Below, piece after piece: positions 17,823 through 26,269 of a DNA stretch of 64,000 bases. The stretch's first letter is position 1. Every line of letters begins with the position of its first letter. The DNA is from Rhizobium tumorigenes (GTDB taxonomy: Bacteria; Pseudomonadota; Alphaproteobacteria; Rhizobiales; Rhizobiaceae), in contig NZ_CP117256.1 in NCBI RefSeq assembly GCF_003240565.2, forward strand, positions 682,001-746,000. Direction: 5' to 3'. Both the position numbers and the translations under genes were made by a program. The notes below the pieces were generated by a model. It saw only the letters and a list, made by a program, of their open reading frames with translations, made no database searches and was not told the DNA's origin.

Positions 17823-20800
17823 TCATTTGCCTTCCGCACGGACTTTTGGGAGTGGGCTCCGCTGAGGATCGGGCTCGGCATGGAACTCGTCATGCCGAAC
17901 TCGGAAGGAGCGCACAAAAATGTCCCGCGGTCTGGGCGACGGTGCCCGATCTCTTGCGTCTCCACCTCCGGCAGAGCCATGGGCAAACTCGTCTCCCCGG
18001 CCCGCCGGCAAATTGAACGCGATCTCCCGGTCTGCAAGGCCGGACAGATCGCCTGACAGGTCGAACAGCTGCTGGGCGACGAGATGGACGACATCGCCTT
18101 CCCGCTGGATTTTGCCGTTGATCGCCATCATCGAGGCTCCCAGCACAACCCGACGCCGCCTTTCAAACAGCTTTGGCCAGACCACGATGTTCGCAGGTCC
18201 GGTTTCATCCTCGATCGTGATGAACATCACACCTTTCGCGGAGCCCGGCTTCTGCCGCACAAGAACCAGGCCTGCCGTCAGGACCCATCGACCATCCCGT
18301 GCCGTCATGGCCTCCTCGCAGGTCACGATGCTGCGCTTTGCCAGATCGGTTCGCAGGAAGGCGATCGGGTGGTCGCGAAGCGTGAGCCCGGTATGGCCAT
18401 AGTCCTCCACCACATTATGGCCTTCGGTCATCTGCCTGAGCGCGACCTCGGGCTCCCGCTGCTCGGCGATCGTTTGCATCTCGCGATCGGCAGCAGCGGC
18501 AAACAAAGGCAGCGGCTCGTCGCGCAGCGCCTTGATCGCCCAAAGGGCGTCGCGTCTCTCGAGCTTCAGGGCCGGCCGAAACGCATCTGCCTCCGCAAGT
18601 TCGACCAGCGAGGCAGCCGGAACACCCGACCGGCGCCACATGTCATCGACGGAAGCAAATTCACTGTTCATTCGCGCGGCGACAATCCGGGCGGCGTCCG
18701 AGACGGCGAGACCTCTCACCATCCGCATGCCCAGCCGGACAGCATGGCGCTCGGTACTGCCGATCCGCTCCAGCGTGCAATCCCAACGGGATTGGTTGAT
18801 ACAGACGGGGCGGATCTCGACGCCATGGGCGCGGGCACAGCCGACGATCTGGGCGGGCGCATAAAAGCCCATGGGCTGACTGTTCAACAGGGCCGCGCAA
18901 AAGACGTCCGGGAAGTGGCACTTCACAAAATTGGACGCATAGGCGATCAGCGCGAAGGAAGCCGCGTGGGATTCCGGAAAGCCATAGGAGCCGAACCCCT
19001 CGAGCTGACTGAAGGTCTTTTCGGCGAACGCGGCGGTATAGCCGTTTCGCACCATACCCGAGACCAGTTTATCCTTGAACCGCGACACGCCCCCGCTGAA
19101 CTTGAAGGTCGCCATGCTCTTGCGCAATTGGTCGGCCTCTCCGCCGGTAAAACCGGCACAGACCATCGCGACCCGCATCGCCGATTCCTGAAAAAGCGGC
19201 ACGCCCAGCGTCTTCCCAAGCACGGCTTCCAGTTCCGGGGTGGGATACTCGACCTTCTCCTTGCCCTCACGCCGGCGCAGGTACGGATGCACCATGTCGC
19301 CCTGGATTGGTCCCGGGCGGACGATCGCAACCTGGACAACCAAATCGTAAAATGTCCTGGGCTTCAGACGCGGCAGCATCGCCATTTGCGCCCGGCTCTC
19401 GATCTGGAACGTCCCCAGCGTGTCGGTCTTGCGGATCATCGCATAGGTCGCCTGATCCTCCTGAGGAATTTTGGACAAATCCAGGTCTTCGTCCTTGTGC
19501 TCGCGGATCAGGTCGAACGCCTTGGACATGCAGGTCAGCATGCCCAGCGCCAGAACGTCCACCTTCATCATTTTCAGGGCTTCGACATCGTCCTTGTCCC
19601 ACTCGATGATCTGCCTGTCTTTCATGCTGGCCGGCTCGATGGGAACGAGATCATCGAGACGGTCCCGCGTTAGAACAAAGCCGCCGGGATGCTGCCCGAG
19701 ATGACGGGGTGCGCCCATCAGTTGCTGGGCCAGCTGCAGCGTCAGGACCAGCCGACGATCGTCGGGATTGAGATTGAGCTCTTTCACGTTACGGGAGCTC
19801 ACCTCTTCCGACCACGACCACATGCCCGACGACAACGCCTTGATCAAATCTTCCGGCAGGCCCAGCGCCTTGCCGACGTCACGGATGGCGCCCTTGGCGC
19901 GATAGCGCGTCACGGTCGCGCAAAGGGCAGCCTTTTCCCGGCCGTAGGTCCTGTAGATCCACTGGATGACTTCCTCGCGCCGCTGGTGCTCGAAATCGAC
20001 ATCGATGTCCGGCGGCTCGTCCCGCTCCTGGCTGACGAAGCGCTCGAACAGGAGATCGTTCGTTTCTGGATCGATCGAGGTGACGCCAAGAATGTAGCAG
20101 ACGGCCGAGTTCGCAGCCGAGCCGCGTCCCTGGCAGAGGATGCCTTGGCCCCGTGCAAACCGCACGATCGAAAACACGGTGAGAAAGTAAGGCGCGTATT
20201 TCATCTTCTGGATCAGGTCGAGCTCATGCCGGACGATCTGCAGCGTTTTTGGCGGCAGGCCTTCCGGATAGCGATCCGGCACACATTGCCAGACATAGTG
20301 TTCGAGGGACTCCTGGGCCGATTTTCCAGGAACGATGGCTTCTTCCGGATACTGGTAGGTCAATTCCTCGAGCGAGAATTTGCAGCGATCGACGATCTCC
20401 ATGGTTCGCCGTAGCGCTTCTGGATAGCGAGGAAACAGACGCTCCATTTCCTCGGGCGGCTTGAGATACCTGTCGGCGTGACGCTCGCGTTCGAAACCGA
20501 CCTCGTCGATCGTCGTATTGTTGCGAATGCAGGTGACAATGTCCTGCAACTGACGCCTCTCTGGCTCGTGAAACAGCACGTCATTGGTGACGACGGTCTT
20601 GACCTTGAGCCGCGCGGCCATATTCGACAGATCATGAAGCCGCAGCTGGTCGTTGGGGCGGCGTCTCAGCGACAGTGACAGATAGGAACGATCTCCAAAG
20701 ACCTCGGTCAACCTGCGGAGTTGGACCGCGCAGATATCGTCGGTGATGTCCGGGATCAGGACACCGAGCAGGCCATCCGCATAGATCGCGACGTCGTCCA

Positions 20801-21122
20801 GATGCAGAATGCAGTTGTTCTTCCCGCCCCTTGCCTTCCCCAGCGTGATCAGCCGGGTTAGCCGGGAATAGGCAGCGCGGTCGGTCGGATAAACCAGGAT
20901 CGACATGCCGTCCGCCAGATCGAGGCGACATCCGACCACCAGGCGCACGCCTGTTTCGCGCGAGGCCTCGAGAGCCCGGACGATCCCGGCAAGCGAGTTG
21001 CGATCGACGACCCCGATCGCATCGATACCCAGCGCCTTCGCGGTTGCAAACAGCTCCTGGGCCGAACTTGCGCCCCTTAAAAAACTGAACTGTGTGGTGA
21101 CCTGAAGCTCGGCATATCTCAT
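17823..21122 (-). CDS. dnaE2: error-prone DNA polymerase DnaE2 (ImuC)
   Basis: 1099-residue C-family polymerase. The N-terminal PHP domain starts with [11 protein letters not shown]; the palm has [13 protein letters not shown] with the catalytic aspartates; [20 protein letters not shown] and [16 protein letters not shown] are hallmarks of DnaE2 rather than DnaE1. A tandem HhH region and a C-terminal OB fold (about 950-1050) follow. With ImuA and ImuB it forms the mutasome that copies past DNA lesions and raises mutation during the SOS response. The ATG overlaps the imuB stop by four bases, so the two are translationally coupled. The whole gene is intact. Confidence 0.97.
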
Positions 21123-22633
21123 GCAAAAATTCCGTGGACAAACCAGGTGTGGGATCCGGTCCCGCCATCGACACCATCGCCGGAGCGGAAAATCCAGAGG
21201 CGCTCGCCTGCGTCGTCCTCAACGATGAAGTAGTCGCGAACCGCCGCCCATTCGGACGTGCGCTGCCACCATTCGCCGAAGATGCGCTCGGGCCCATCGG
21301 CGCGTCTGACCCGCCGGCGCTTGCCCCGCCACGTGACCGACACCGGCGGATGGTCGGGAAGCAGCGCGATCACCTCGACCTCCTCCGGATGGGCAAGCAG
21401 ACGGACCGGACGCGGCCAATGATGCGACCAGAAGACGTCGATATCGTCAGCGGTGGCAGCAATTCGCCGGACGCTGCGCTCCGGGACATCGGAGGCCACC
21501 GGTGCCAGGCGGTAAACCCGCTGGCCGCGGTTGCCGAAGATGTCCACAAGCGGCGTGATATCCTGGACACCATCCTCGATGAACCACGATGTCGTCTGGG
21601 TCTCGCCGAGCGGCTGCGACAGGACGGCGACCAGGGTCAGCCTCTCGATGCCGAAACCTGGATCGATCCTTTCGGTGCGGTCCTTGAACAGCTTGGTGAG
21701 CCAGGCCACGTCCCTTGCAGGCTTTGCCGTTCCGGCACGAATGGCCTGGCGGGTATTGTCGACCGTGTCGATGATCAGGTCGGCACGCCGGACCCCCAGC
21801 CCTTGTCTTTGGAGTTCGGCGCAGAGCTCGACGACCAGGCGCCCGACATATTTATCGATCGTCTCGGCCGCACCGATCGGGTCCTGGAAAGAGCGAGCGA
21901 CCGCAATCTGCCCAGGGCTTCTTATGGGCTCGATCGGCTCGCGGGCACGACCGACCATCTGGTCGAGCCGTCGCCCGATCTCGGGTCCGAAGCGAAGCGT
22001 CAGCGGCGCGCGCGGCGTCGCTGAGAGCTCCCCGATCGTGCGAAAGCCAAGGGTCCTGAGATCGCTGACGGTCTTGTCAGGCAGTCGCAGCAGCGCTATG
22101 GGCAAGCGCTCGACGGCGCGCACGGTCTCGCCTCTGGGTATGATGACCGTCTCTCTTTTGATCGCCCGTGCGCAGGCGTGCGCAGCGCCCCATGTGTCGG
22201 CAATGGCGACACGCGTTGTCAGACCCTTGGCGGCGAACCGATTGGCGATGCCCGTCAGCATGGCGCGCTCCCCACCCTTGAGATGGTCGGCGCCCTCCGT
22301 GTCCATGACGATGCCGTTGGGAGCGTCGACGGCAACGATAGGCGAATACTGGGTCAAAGCCCACAACGCGATCCGCTCAAGAGCCGCAGCATCGGCCTGC
22401 AGGTCCGCGTCGATCATCAGCAGTCCCTGGAACAGGGCCTGGGCTTTTGCAGCCGCCATGCCGATGCGCACACCTGCTTTTCTGGCGGGATCGTCGGCCG
22501 CCGACACCCAGCGTTTCGATCCGCTTTTTGCAATCACGGCAATGGCCTGGTCAACCGGAATGGCCGGATCGGCGGCGCGACGAATGCGATCCGTCGACAG
22601 ATCCGGAAGGTAGATCGATACGACCCTGGTCAT
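21119..22633 (-). CDS. imuB: ImuB, Y-family polymerase-like mutasome protein
   Basis: About 504 residues. It follows the Y-family fold ([12 protein letters not shown] at the start, [11 protein letters not shown] where the second catalytic site would be) but lacks the acidic residues that bind metal in active polymerases, as is normal for ImuB. It links DnaE2 to the beta clamp. The frame is open from 22660, but the ATG at 22633 has GGAGCG upstream and matches the family N terminus. It overlaps the end of imuA by about 80 bases and the start of dnaE2 by four, giving a tight three-gene unit. Confidence 0.95.
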
Positions 22634-23306
22634 CACACGCTCCAACGATAAACTCGGCACAGGCGCCGGCCCGCGATCTCATCAGCTCCAGCAACCAGGT
22701 TGCCCGCCCGACGCCGGGCACGGGCAAGGCCACCGACGGCAGCACGCTCACGCGCCACCGCGTGACCGAAGCGGTCGGTTGACCGAAGTCGTTGGCTTCC
22801 GTCTGGCGGCGCCATCTGCGAACGACGAGGGCCAAGGTCCCCTTTTGTTCGGCGGCAAGCTGCAGGCGCCGGCTTTCCAGCATCGGCAGTCGCACGAGCT
22901 CGCCCACGACCGCGCCGAGGCCGCCATAGGACAAGGCCTCCTCCATGGAGGCAAGCACGTCCTCCTGCCGATCGCCCTCGACGAAGATGACGCGGTTCGC
23001 ATCGAGGCCCGCTTGGGCCAGCGCCGGGAAAAACAGGTCTGGACGCGTCAGACACCAGACGATCTTGCCTTTGGTGCGGGCCGCAATCCCGGCAACGAAC
23101 AGGGCGGCGGCGGCTCCATCGACGGCACCGACGCCACCGCCTGCGAACTCATGAAGAGCGCCGCGCGCAAGACCGCCTCCTGGCAGCACGGCATCGATCT
23201 CGGCGACACCGAAGGGCAGGCTTTCCAATGGCATCGCCGGGCCACGCCCAAGGGAGGCGATACGGCTGCGCAGATCGGCTATGACGTGCGCGCGTGCAGC
23301 CGTCAT
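22551..23306 (-). CDS. imuA: ImuA, RecA-like mutasome accessory protein
   Basis: 251 residues with a degenerate RecA/SulA-type core: PFGVAEIDAVLPGGGLARGALHEF takes the Walker A place without the usual GKT, then a Walker-B-like strand (IVWCLTRPDLF) and a C-terminal region rich in arginine. ImuA is needed for damage-induced mutagenesis by ImuB and DnaE2 in Caulobacter and other bacteria. It is the first gene of imuA-imuB-dnaE2 and lies 67 bases after a LexA-type box. The long overlap with imuB suggests coupled translation. Confidence 0.93.
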   Translation of the reverse strand: MTAARAHVIADLRSRIASLGRGPAMPLESLPFGVAEIDAVLPGGGLARGALHEFAGGGVGAVDGAAAALFVAGIAARTKGKIVWCLTRPDLFFPALAQAGLDANRVIFVEGDRQEDVLASMEEALSYGGLGAVVGELVRLPMLESRRLQLAAEQKGTLALVVRRWRRQTEANDFGQPTASVTRWRVSVLPSVALPVPGVGRATWLLELMRSRAGACAEFIVGACDDQGRIDLPSGSVDGSHSSRRRSGHSG

Positions 23307-23372
23307 CGTTCACGCAATCCTCTCGGTTCGTGGGGCTCATCAGAACGACGTCATGCCGTTTTATCGATTGAA

Positions 23373-23387
23373 GTTCACGTTCTGTTC
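23373..23387 (-). promoter_or_regulatory. LexA/SOS box upstream of imuA
   Basis: GTTC at 23373-23376 and GTTC at 23384-23387 with exactly seven bases between, the direct-repeat LexA site of alphaproteobacteria. On the imuA strand it reads GAAC-N7-GAAC. It lies 67 bases before the imuA start. LexA should repress the cassette until DNA damage. Confidence 0.85.
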
Positions 23388-23667
23388 TGTCGCGCAACGA
23401 GAGTCAAGCCAGTATAAAATAGGAATATCCTCCTCCAATTTTAGCAAGGACGAAGATTCTTGAGCCGAATCAGCGCCGTATCCCCGTTTGCGCCGTGTCT
23501 GGCCTCACAAAAAAAATCGCTGGGCGCGTAGCTGGACGAGGCACCGGTTGCCTCCGGTCGCGGAATGGATGCGACCGGGGACACGGTTTACCTTTCGGGG
23601 GAAGGTTCGATGTGGCTCCCCGGTGGGGAGACCCCTTCGCCACTGTCGTGCAAAGGCTTGGCGGTGC

Positions 23668-23976
23668 CTATCGGCCGGAGACGCGGATCGCACCCGCCTC
23701 CCCCAGACTGCGTTGGACAGCGCCAACTTGGCTGGCGGCAATATCGGCGGACACCTCGATCTCGCCGCCAAGCGGCGCGTCATCGCGCGCACCCTCATTG
23801 TGGGACACGTCTCCGCCCGATGGCGAGGTGCCGACGGTGTTGTCAGCGGTGGTGGATTGGACGAAGATGTCCGGCCTTGCGATGCCGTGCTGCTGAACCA
23901 GATGCTCGACCGCCAGATCGGCTGCCGCGCGGGTCGCGAAGGTGGCTCGGATCGTCAGGGTGCTGTCGTCTGCCAT
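23668..23976 (-). CDS. conserved-looking small protein divergent from dinB
   Basis: 102 residues. The start (STLTIRATFATRAAADLAVEHL) looks like an alpha/beta ferredoxin-like fold of the kind in which two short repeats flank a low-complexity acidic loop (about residues 40-70). The second half has GGEIEVSADIAASQVGAV. The ATG has AGAGGAGA upstream. It is divergent from dinB across 146 bases that contain an SOS-like box, so it may be damage-induced. No function is known to me. The organised composition and good ribosome site support a real gene. Confidence 0.7.
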   Translation of the reverse strand: MADDSTLTIRATFATRAAADLAVEHLVQQHGIARPDIFVQSTTADNTVGTSPSGGDVSHNEGARDDAPLGGEIEVSADIAASQVGAVQRSLGEAGAIRVSGR

Positions 23977-24092
23977 GCGGCTATCTCCTCTTGCTGATGT
24001 CGCCGTTCACAACGTCTCTCGGCCCCACTGGTTTCCTCGTTTCCCGGCAGGTGAGCATCAGGCGTCTTGGCTATCGTTCCAGACGCTGGTAT

Positions 24093-24107
24093 GTTCTCTT
24101 TTTGTTT
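24093..24107 (+). promoter_or_regulatory. probable LexA/SOS box upstream of dinB
   Basis: GTTC at 24093-24096, a seven-base T-rich spacer, then GTTT at 24104-24107: one mismatch from GTTC-N7-GTTC. It ends 15 bases before the dinB start, overlapping where the promoter should be, and also lies in the shared upstream region of the divergent 102-residue gene. Confidence 0.65.
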
Positions 24108-24122
24108 CGCTGACATGCCCAG

Positions 24123-25220
24123 ATGGCCGCCATGAACGACGTGACGCTACCGCCAACCCGCAAAATCATTCATGTCGACATGGATGCCTTCTATGCCTCG
24201 GTCGAGCAGCGCGACAATCCCGACCTGCGCGGACGGCCGCTGGCCGTTGGCGGATCGGCGGCCCGGGGCGTCGTGGCGGCGGCCAGTTACGAAGCGCGAA
24301 CCTTCGGTGTCCACTCGGCCATGCCGTCCGTCACCGCCAGGCGGAAATGTCCGGAGCTGATCTTCGTGCCGCCACGCTTCGAGGTCTATCGGCAGGTGTC
24401 GCAGCAGATCCGGGACATCTTTGCTGAGTACACATCCCTTATCGAGCCCCTGTCGCTCGACGAGGCCTATCTCGACGTGACCGAAAACTTGATGGGCATG
24501 GAGATCGCCACGCACATTGCGCTGGAGATCCGCGCAAAGATCAAGGCTGTCACCGGACTCAATGCATCCGCTGGCATCTCCTACAACAAGTTTCTGGCCA
24601 AGATGGCAAGCGACCTGAACAAGCCGAATGGCCAGGCGGTGATCACGCCGAAGAATGGCCCGGGCTTCGTCGAAACCCTCCCCGTCAAGAAATTCCATGG
24701 CGTCGGGCCGGCGACGGCCGAGCGCATGAAACGGCACGGCATCGAGACCGGCCTTGACCTCAAATCGAAGTCTCTTGCCTTCCTCCAGCAGACGTTCGGC
24801 AAGTCCGGGCCCTATTTCTTCGGGATCGCCCGTGGCATCGACGAACGCCGGGTCAGGCCCGACCGGATCCGGAAATCCGTTGGCGCCGAGGATACCTTCG
24901 TCGAGGACATCGACGATCTCGATCTGGCCAAGGCCGAGCTGAGGCCGTTGGCCGAAAAGGTCTGGCGTTCTTGCGAGGCCAACGACATCAGGGGAAAGAC
25001 GGTGACCGTCAAAATCAAATATTCGGATTTCAGCCAGGCGACCCGCAGCAAAACCCTGTCCGGACCCGTCTCGGATATCGACATGGTGCTGGAGGCCGCA
25101 GAGATCCTGCTTGCCTCGGTGTTCCCGTTCAAACGTCCTGTGCGACTGCTGGGCGTGACCCTGTCATCGCTGAACACGAGCGACCACGAGGCAGAACCGC
25201 AACTCGCCCTCGGCCTTTGA
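24123..25220 (+). CDS. dinB: DNA polymerase IV (DinB)
   Basis: 365-residue Y-family polymerase. Both catalytic motifs are intact: HVDMDAFYASVEQ near residue 18 and LSLDEAYLDVT near residue 115. The HhH region (KKFHGVGPATAERM) and the little-finger domain are present. DinB copies past N2-guanine adducts and extends mismatched ends. A LexA-like box precedes it. ATGs at 24123 and 24132 are both possible starts. It sits beside the imuA-imuB-dnaE2 unit, so this stretch is a compact SOS mutagenesis island. The C terminus may lack a clear beta-clamp motif; only QLALGL is visible. Confidence 0.96.
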   Translation: MAAMNDVTLPPTRKIIHVDMDAFYASVEQRDNPDLRGRPLAVGGSAARGVVAAASYEARTFGVHSAMPSVTARRKCPELIFVPPRFEVYRQVSQQIRDIFAEYTSLIEPLSLDEAYLDVTENLMGMEIATHIALEIRAKIKAVTGLNASAGISYNKFLAKMASDLNKPNGQAVITPKNGPGFVETLPVKKFHGVGPATAERMKRHGIETGLDLKSKSLAFLQQTFGKSGPYFFGIARGIDERRVRPDRIRKSVGAEDTFVEDIDDLDLAKAELRPLAEKVWRSCEANDIRGKTVTVKIKYSDFSQATRSKTLSGPVSDIDMVLEAAEILLASVFPFKRPVRLLGVTLSSLNTSDHEAEPQLALGL

Positions 25221-25229
25221 CGCGATGGT

Positions 25230-25276
25230 CCCCAAACGAAAAGCCTGCCGCGGGAGGAGGAGGTGCGGCAGGCTTT
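25230..25276 (-). terminator. Rho-independent terminator of the small RNA
   Basis: Perfect 12-base-pair stem (25240-25251 with 25265-25276), 13-base pyrimidine loop on the minus strand, then TTTTCGTTT. It may also slow transcripts leaving dinB on the plus strand, but no T-run follows in that direction. Confidence 0.75.
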
Positions 25277-25400
25277 CGAAAAGAACCGAACAGACAGCTT
25301 ACGAGGAGGAAAGCCGCTGTTCCGACAGACGTCCCTGCGGGGGAGGAGTGGACGTCTGAATTCGAAGCGATGCGGGAGGAGATGCATTGCTTCGACGGCT
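25232..25400 (-). ncRNA. alpha-r14/NfeR1-like small RNA with four anti-SD loops
   Basis: Four stem-loops lie in tandem. Stems (plus coordinates): 25363-25373/25384-25394; 25326-25334/25350-25358; 25288-25293/25317-25322 with inner 25297-25300/25311-25314; 25240-25251/25265-25276. On the minus strand every loop shows a UCCUCC core, the anti-Shine-Dalgarno motif exposed by rhizobial alpha-r14 (NfeR1) RNAs, which pair with ribosome sites of many mRNAs. The last hairpin is a 12-base-pair GC stem followed by TTTTCGTTT, a Rho-independent terminator, which fixes the strand. The first stem has one A-C mismatch on this strand. The 5' end and promoter are not resolved. Confidence 0.75.
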
Positions 25401-25547
25401 AGAAGATATCCGATGTTTCAGCACATTAAATAGACTTTGTTGCAGCGCAGCCATGCGAAAAGCGACGAACTGGTTTGCGGAGGAAAAGTTGTCCCGTTTC
25501 CCTGATCGAAGGCGATCGGATATTCGTTTTAAGCGGGAAGGCAAGAC

Positions 25548-26269
25548 TTGGCGAGGCATAGCGAGGTTCTTGGTTCCAAGCGCCCAGGGGACCTTTCGTC
25601 AATCTTGGCGCGTTTCACGATCAACGGAATTCGAAACATCGAGCGCGATACTGACTTCGACAACGAGAGTTATCGCAGCGGTGGCATCCGCCTCTATTAT
25701 CCCGGGATGACAGGCGTGAAGTCTGAGCTAAAGGATGGCGTACTGCTCGAAGCCGGCTTCGATACAGTTACCCCCAATATCGAAAGGGATATTAGCTCCT
25801 GGGCATACGACTATGCGTCATTGCTGGTGGAACTGATCGACAATCGCGCGCTGTCCGTGCCCTGCTACGAACCCGGCTACACTCTGGTGGAAAAGCTTCA
25901 GACCATCTCCACAAAGTATCGACGGCAGCAGGAAACCGGACAATTGCCCGTCAATTTCCTTCGACATTATTATGACGTCTACTGCCTGCTGAACCAAGCC
26001 CACGTGCAAGCTTTCATCGGTACGGGCACGTATCGAGCCCACGTGCAAGCTTTCATCGGTACGGGCACGTATCGCGCCCACAAGAACCGGCGCTTCCCGA
26101 AACTCGACAATCCGGATATCAGCAGCAACCCGGCGTTCAGTCTTTCCAACCCCCAGATATTCGCACTTTACGAACGCGCGTATGAGCGGACCGCGGCCCC
26201 TATTATCATGGCAGGCCAAGCCTGAAAGAGATCCTCGCGCGCATCGCGTCATACGCGAAGCGTCTCTAG
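25548..26269 (+). pseudogene. truncated AbiEii-type nucleotidyltransferase toxin gene
   Basis: The frame at 25548-26225 matches the C-terminal two thirds of AbiEii/AbiGii toxins: YRSGGIRLYY, LLEAGFDTVTPN, SSWAYDYA, GYTLVEKLQTI, LRHYYDVYCLL and AHKNRRFP are in family order. The N-terminal nucleotidyltransferase motif (GSxxxD type) is missing. Near 26205-26220 one base is out of phase; in the shifted frame the natural end, LKEILARIASYAKRL, runs to a stop at 26267-26269. A 39-base duplication adds 13 residues. No antitoxin gene (AbiEi) is present. The gene should be dead as a phage-abortive or addiction toxin. Confidence 0.85.
25998..26075 (+). repeat. 39-base tandem duplication inside the toxin remnant
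   Basis: Two head-to-tail copies of a 39-base unit (25998-26036 and 26037-26075), identical except the last base. It keeps the reading frame and duplicates 13 residues (AHVQAFIGTGTYR). The near identity suggests a recent event. Confidence 0.95.

Follow-up and report, generated by a model that had tools for sequence, protein, structure and literature searches.

A putative minus-strand RNA with four anti-Shine-Dalgarno hairpins beside dinB in Rhizobium tumorigenes, a probable counterpart of SmelA099

The window considered here, a stretch of 64,000 nucleotides of Rhizobium tumorigenes DNA, contains a translesion synthesis locus (17823-25220) in which the minus strand carries dnaE2-like, imuB-like and imuA-like genes and the plus strand dinB; the names imuA and dnaE2 are taken from the annotation of relatives, the ImuA of the window having no Pfam match. 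A similar order of translesion genes is found in R. tumorigenes 932, on a Ti plasmid and on a Sinorhizobium plasmid. The dinB stop codon (25220) and the 3' end of a putative small RNA are about 13 bp apart, and on the other side of this RNA an AbiEii-type nucleotidyltransferase gene (Pfam PF08843) occupies 25548-26225 on the plus strand. The latter gene contains a 39-bp direct tandem duplication (copies from 25998 and 26037) which adds 13 residues, the corresponding gene of R. tumorigenes 932 having a single, slightly different unit instead. The small RNA and the elements around it are the following:

24123..25220, plus strand: dinB, DNA polymerase IV (Pfam IMS and IMS_C; annotated dinB in R. 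tumorigenes 932), convergent with the small RNA
25234..25397, minus strand: putative small RNA of about 162 nt with four anti-Shine-Dalgarno hairpins (SmelA099-type, a relative of alpha-r14/'cuckoo'), placed by homology and models
25362..25395, minus strand: hairpin 1, loop AUCUCCUCCC, outside the Rfam ar14 model
25326..25358, minus strand: hairpin 2, loop CUCCUCCCCC, diverged
25288..25322, minus strand: hairpin 3, loop UCCUCCUCG, diverged
25237..25278, minus strand: hairpin 4, presumed terminator, loop CCUCCUCCUCCC with one extra CCU, followed by UUUUCGUUU
25403..25408, minus strand: -10-like TATCTT, 5 nt before the predicted start, found by eye from the alignment
25441..25456, minus strand: conserved upstream box GCATGGCTGCGCTGCA, fitting the generic LysR-type T-N11-A spacing

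Folding of 25220-25410 gave a minimum free energy of -79.6 kcal/mol for the minus strand, against -51.95 (sd 4.01) for shuffled sequences (z -6.9), and none of 200 shuffles was as low. From 5' to 3' the loop motifs are UCUCCUCCC, CUCCUCCCCC, UCCUCCUCG and CCUCCUCCUCCC, and the UCCUCC core is kept in all four: the four minus-strand hairpins with UCCUCC-type loops described in an earlier sequence-only reading are therefore confirmed. The same reading had taken the last hairpin for a terminator with a T-run, and hairpin 4 is indeed followed by such a run, but one that is short and interrupted, and its status is that of a presumed terminator. The canonical CCUCCUCCC, which each of the three predicted hairpins of alpha-r14 RNAs is described as carrying (PMC10746234), does not occur in loops 1-3, while loop 4 shows the form given above. 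The plus strand reaches a slightly lower energy (-81.2), yet with a weaker z of -5.15. Three open reading frames overlap the RNA, at 24812-25387 (minus), 24971-25402 (plus) and 25299-25559 (minus); they are presumed to be chance occurrences, and no coding explanation is favoured.

The 5' end of the RNA probably lies near 25397, where homology to SmelA099 places it, and the 3' end near 25235, at hairpin 4. Transcription of the minus strand would start from a promoter within about 25403-25456, in which TATCTT has the position of the TATAGT found 5 nt before the start of SmelA099, and by homology hairpin 4 would end the transcript. The GCAT of the upstream box is present in all 31 aligned loci, and by eye a similar box is found ahead of SmelA099 and of three of the four other copies in this genome (L001, L002 and L003; not L005). 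The published LsrB motif, TGCA-N6-GCAT, was also considered for this box: by eye only the T-N11-A spacing fits, and LsrB is not claimed. A consensus scan of the minus strand returned neither a terminator nor a sigma-70 consensus promoter for the small RNA, the loop limit of 8 nt in the terminator scan being such that the 13-nt loop of hairpin 4 could not be caught.

With respect to family membership, an Rfam cmscan of the whole window gave one match over the cut-off, RF02344 (ar14) at 25236-25364 on the minus strand, scoring 66.7 bits against a gathering score of 58.8 and covering the model completely (1-123), which upholds the kinship with alpha-r14 that had been suggested. It had also been stated that this family has fewer such loops, and this is correct, the Rfam/NfeR1 form having three hairpins. 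In the alignment to the model, ar14 spans hairpins 2-4 only and leaves hairpin 1 outside, so the RNA of the window, with its four hairpins, departs from the three-hairpin form of ar14. Identity with other families was rejected, the scores being 17.9 bits for CcsR1 (RF02791; cut-off 65.3), 29.7 bits for ar7 (cut-off 60) and 19.6 bits for mraW (cut-off 50). The four-hairpin alignment described below was turned into a model, here called R1, which matches 25234-25395 with 151.7 bits, the window sequence being part of its training set.

The closest described RNA is SmelA099 of Sinorhizobium meliloti 1021, a symbiont of alfalfa; it is an RNA of 160 nt located on pSymA (1328175-1328334, minus strand), which has been in print since 2010 and is tabulated under 'Deep sequencing data confirmed previously reported sRNAs' (PMC2873474); in a review it appears as SmelA099/smrA6 (SMa6570), together with the nodule zones ZII/IZ/ZIII (PMC7143759). 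Since the RNA of the window is 75.8% identical to it over 161 nt (E 2e-24) and shares the convergent DinB, it is the syntenic counterpart of this named and sequenced RNA. Moreover, section 2.7 of PMC3927594, from 2011, attributes four anti-Shine-Dalgarno hairpins to RFMSmelA099 and three to RFMSmelA075, and proposes a single family whose members vary in module number and occur in several copies in a genome. The idea of a new, four-loop version thus falls, as RFMSmelA099 was already described with four and SmelA099 is syntenic. Four-hairpin members look new because the Rfam ar14 model holds three hairpins, yet the class is a known and published one and the RNA of the window is an essentially ordinary member of it. 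To that work the present analysis adds the covariation found for hairpins 2 and 3, the evidence on the strand and the spread of four-core copies across genera; the only unusual traits of the window RNA are the drift of its loops and its linkage to dinB.

As regards this spread, the search with R1 found five related copies in the genome of the window at E<=0.001: two with four UCCUCC cores (that of the window and one at C1:3375289, plus strand) and three with three. Four of the five also pass the ar14 cut-off. The remaining one, L005 (G000:C1:1652167-1652281, plus strand), is a diverged relative with three cores and shortened loops, just below that cut-off at 54.2 bits. With the DNA of 25215-25460 as query, matches at E<=0.001 are found in 138 of the 148 genomes of the genus (that of the window among them); there are often several in one genome, and some cover less than the full length. 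The collection of 72,556 plasmid records yields 475 matching ones, and in 85 of these the match spans 80% or more of the query; the genera represented include Rhizobium, Sinorhizobium, Agrobacterium, Ensifer and Shinella. The best match is plasmid pRt932 of R. tumorigenes 932 (98.9%), where the RNA is identical except for one T in the tail. R1 has matches in 99 of 121 sampled genomes of the family, a tally which mixes three- and four-hairpin copies, as the model matches three-hairpin ones end to end. Among 34 family loci that were fetched (two from the own genome), 19 have four cores in a match of at least 155 nt, and in 16 of these 19 the single-sequence fold exposes all four loops; the rest comprise 13 three-core loci, a mixed one (L152, four cores in a match of 123 nt) and an unreadable one (L136). 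Within the sampled family, four-core copies occur in 14 genera besides that of the window.

The conservation of the structure was studied in an alignment of 30 fetched loci, one of them the window itself, plus L002 (31 four-hairpin sequences, 30 distinct rows, 1225 cells; not a random sample). Standard pairs are formed in 98.8% of the cells, and this value drops to 35-48% when the structure is slid along the alignment. Both sides have changed in 12 of the 41 pairs, against a mean of 3.1 after shuffling, and none of 500 shuffles reaches this number. Such changes are concentrated in hairpins 2 (5 of 8 pairs) and 3 (6 of 10), being found in 1 of 9 pairs of hairpin 1 (98.9% of cells paired) and in none of the 14 pairs of hairpin 4 (99.5%), whose sequence is itself conserved. 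Covariation, invoked earlier as a check on all four stems, is therefore clear for the two middle hairpins and thin for the outer ones, which gain little independent support from it because their sequence is conserved. The stems of hairpins 1 (25395-25362) and 4 (25278-25237) are also conserved in sequence with respect to SmelA099, for which protein binding, or gene conversion among the copies, may be responsible. A first module finder, set to a minimum stem length of 7 pairs, recovered all four modules from only 9 of the 31 sequences and gave two or three for each of the others, mostly owing to the internal loop of hairpin 1; beyond those nine the four-hairpin status rests on the alignment, the pair counts and the four UCCUCC cores, which are present in all 31 sequences.

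All in all, the product of the locus is very probably a small RNA that acts in trans by blocking ribosome-binding sites and corresponds, in Rhizobium, to SmelA099. Sequence comparison shows that the minus strand has a conserved structure of four stems with anti-Shine-Dalgarno cores, as well as homology and synteny; promoter, start, termination and repression by the window copy are inferred. As judged from folding and comparison, the four stem-loops would hold the anti-Shine-Dalgarno sequence single-stranded, and each could base-pair with a target mRNA at its ribosome-binding site and so prevent translation, as has been shown for NfeR1, which acts through its anti-Shine-Dalgarno loops, the three of them being redundant in action, and silences ntrB (PMC10746234). 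The loops of the window RNA are probably redundant as well, extra modules raising the valency and adding no new kind of function. The earlier suggestion was that four loops might bind several mRNAs at once or serve as a sponge, which would be conjectural additions to this function. Against this explanation stand the most diverged loops of the 31, the interrupted T-run, the lack of a sigma-70 consensus promoter and the thin covariation of hairpins 1 and 4. Furthermore, the window copy need not be active, since only one of the six NfeR1 copies of S. meliloti is reliably detected by northern blot, according to a review (PMC7143759).

The divergence of the loops deserves separate attention. The loops of the window copy depart from the consensus 17 times, a count inflated by alignment gaps and by the register in loop 2, whereas the next highest value is 5 and the median 2; its stem differences number 4 against a median of 3. 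Its closest relatives among the other copies, L092 and L093 (87% and 86% identity), have 5 loop differences each. The drift is not confined to the lineage of the window: the plasmid copy of Sinorhizobium sp. RAC02 has lost the core of its first loop and keeps three UCCUCC cores only. Such drift could come from relaxed selection or from a change in targets. In the first case the window copy would be a decaying duplicate, still folded and perhaps transcribed, whose seeds have come under relaxed selection while paralogues (the chromosomal four-hairpin copy and the three-loop ones) cover its function, a reading compatible with membership in the same family. The contrast between many loop and few stem differences speaks in its favour, as does the existence in the same genome of a paralogue with four canonical loops; however, UCCUCC survives in every loop, the stems stay paired, the RNA is practically the same in strain 932 and part of the loop count is due to gaps and register, and decay is considered possible but rather doubtful.

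A second trait is the linkage to dinB, which may be mere neighbourhood. Within flanks of about 1.5 kb, a near-full DinB lies beside the RNA in 10 of the 31 aligned loci, a 56-residue fragment in one and none in 20. Conversely, among 80 DinB loci from named genomes, a full-length RNA lies just downstream in six, a 49-nt piece in one and none in 73, two of which have short downstream DNA (105 nt in L023, 212 nt in L044); the six RNA-bearing loci fall among the seven whose DinB identity is at least 79%. Beyond dinB, imuA and imuB matches were found in L011, L013, L014, L122 (a Ti plasmid) and L123 (the RAC02 plasmid), and none in the DNA examined for L012, L020, L045 or pSymA. The main text of PMC3927594 makes no mention of dinB, and a literature search, at the level of titles and beginnings of abstracts, found none among the papers listed that names the combination of the small RNA and dinB. 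That the RNA functions within a translesion locus carried largely on plasmids (dinB, in many cases together with imuA-imuB-dnaE2), where damage-induced read-through from dinB into the shared hairpin would neutralise it and tie ribosome-site repression to the mutagenic response, the drifted loops reflecting changed targets, is regarded as very unlikely. Nevertheless, the recurring place beside dinB, SmelA099 included, is a small lead for plasmid-borne mutagenesis cassettes.

The proximity of dinB also bears on the strand. It had been proposed that the plus strand, with Shine-Dalgarno-like loops, might give an antisense partner; in this form the dinB 3' region would be the functional RNA, acting as partner or sponge of the minus-strand one. 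The plus strand does fold well, and read-through from dinB, which ends so close to the RNA, would be antisense to all of it. However, an A-C cell in the minus-strand sense corresponds to G-U on the opposite strand, and in that sense the alignment holds 77 G-U against 4 A-C cells, with 11 other mismatches (19 against 4 as pair types; 40 against 2 cells without hairpin 4), which argues that selection has kept the minus-strand RNA paired and points to this RNA as the selected one. In addition, dinB-free copies are common, 21 of the 31 loci having no near-full DinB, and the plus-strand proposal is disfavoured to the point of being scarcely credible. Finally, a bidirectional dinB terminator with repeats and no regulatory action would suit the location next to the 3' end of dinB that some of the relatives show, but the other three hairpins and their covariation, the conserved box upstream and the copies without dinB make this the least credible account.

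The trans-acting small RNA thus preferred can be compared with known systems. SmelA099 also folds into four anti-Shine-Dalgarno hairpins, of which the first and the fourth are nearly identical to those of the window; its loops are canonical or nearly so, whereas those of the window RNA have drifted. Both RNAs are convergent with dinB, the DinB match of pSymA (71% over 362 residues) ending 26 bp away from SmelA099, but the approximately 3 kb beyond dinB on pSymA hold no match to imuA, imuB or dnaE2, all three of which are present in the window. With alpha-r14/NfeR1 (RF02344) the RNA shares the tandem hairpins with anti-Shine-Dalgarno loops, three in Rfam and NfeR1 and four here. The same repeated hairpin module has been described in SmelA075 (three hairpins), SmelC201 (two), RS0680a of R. 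sphaeroides (two), CcsR1 and 'cuckoo', the first three differing from the RNA of the window in the number of modules.
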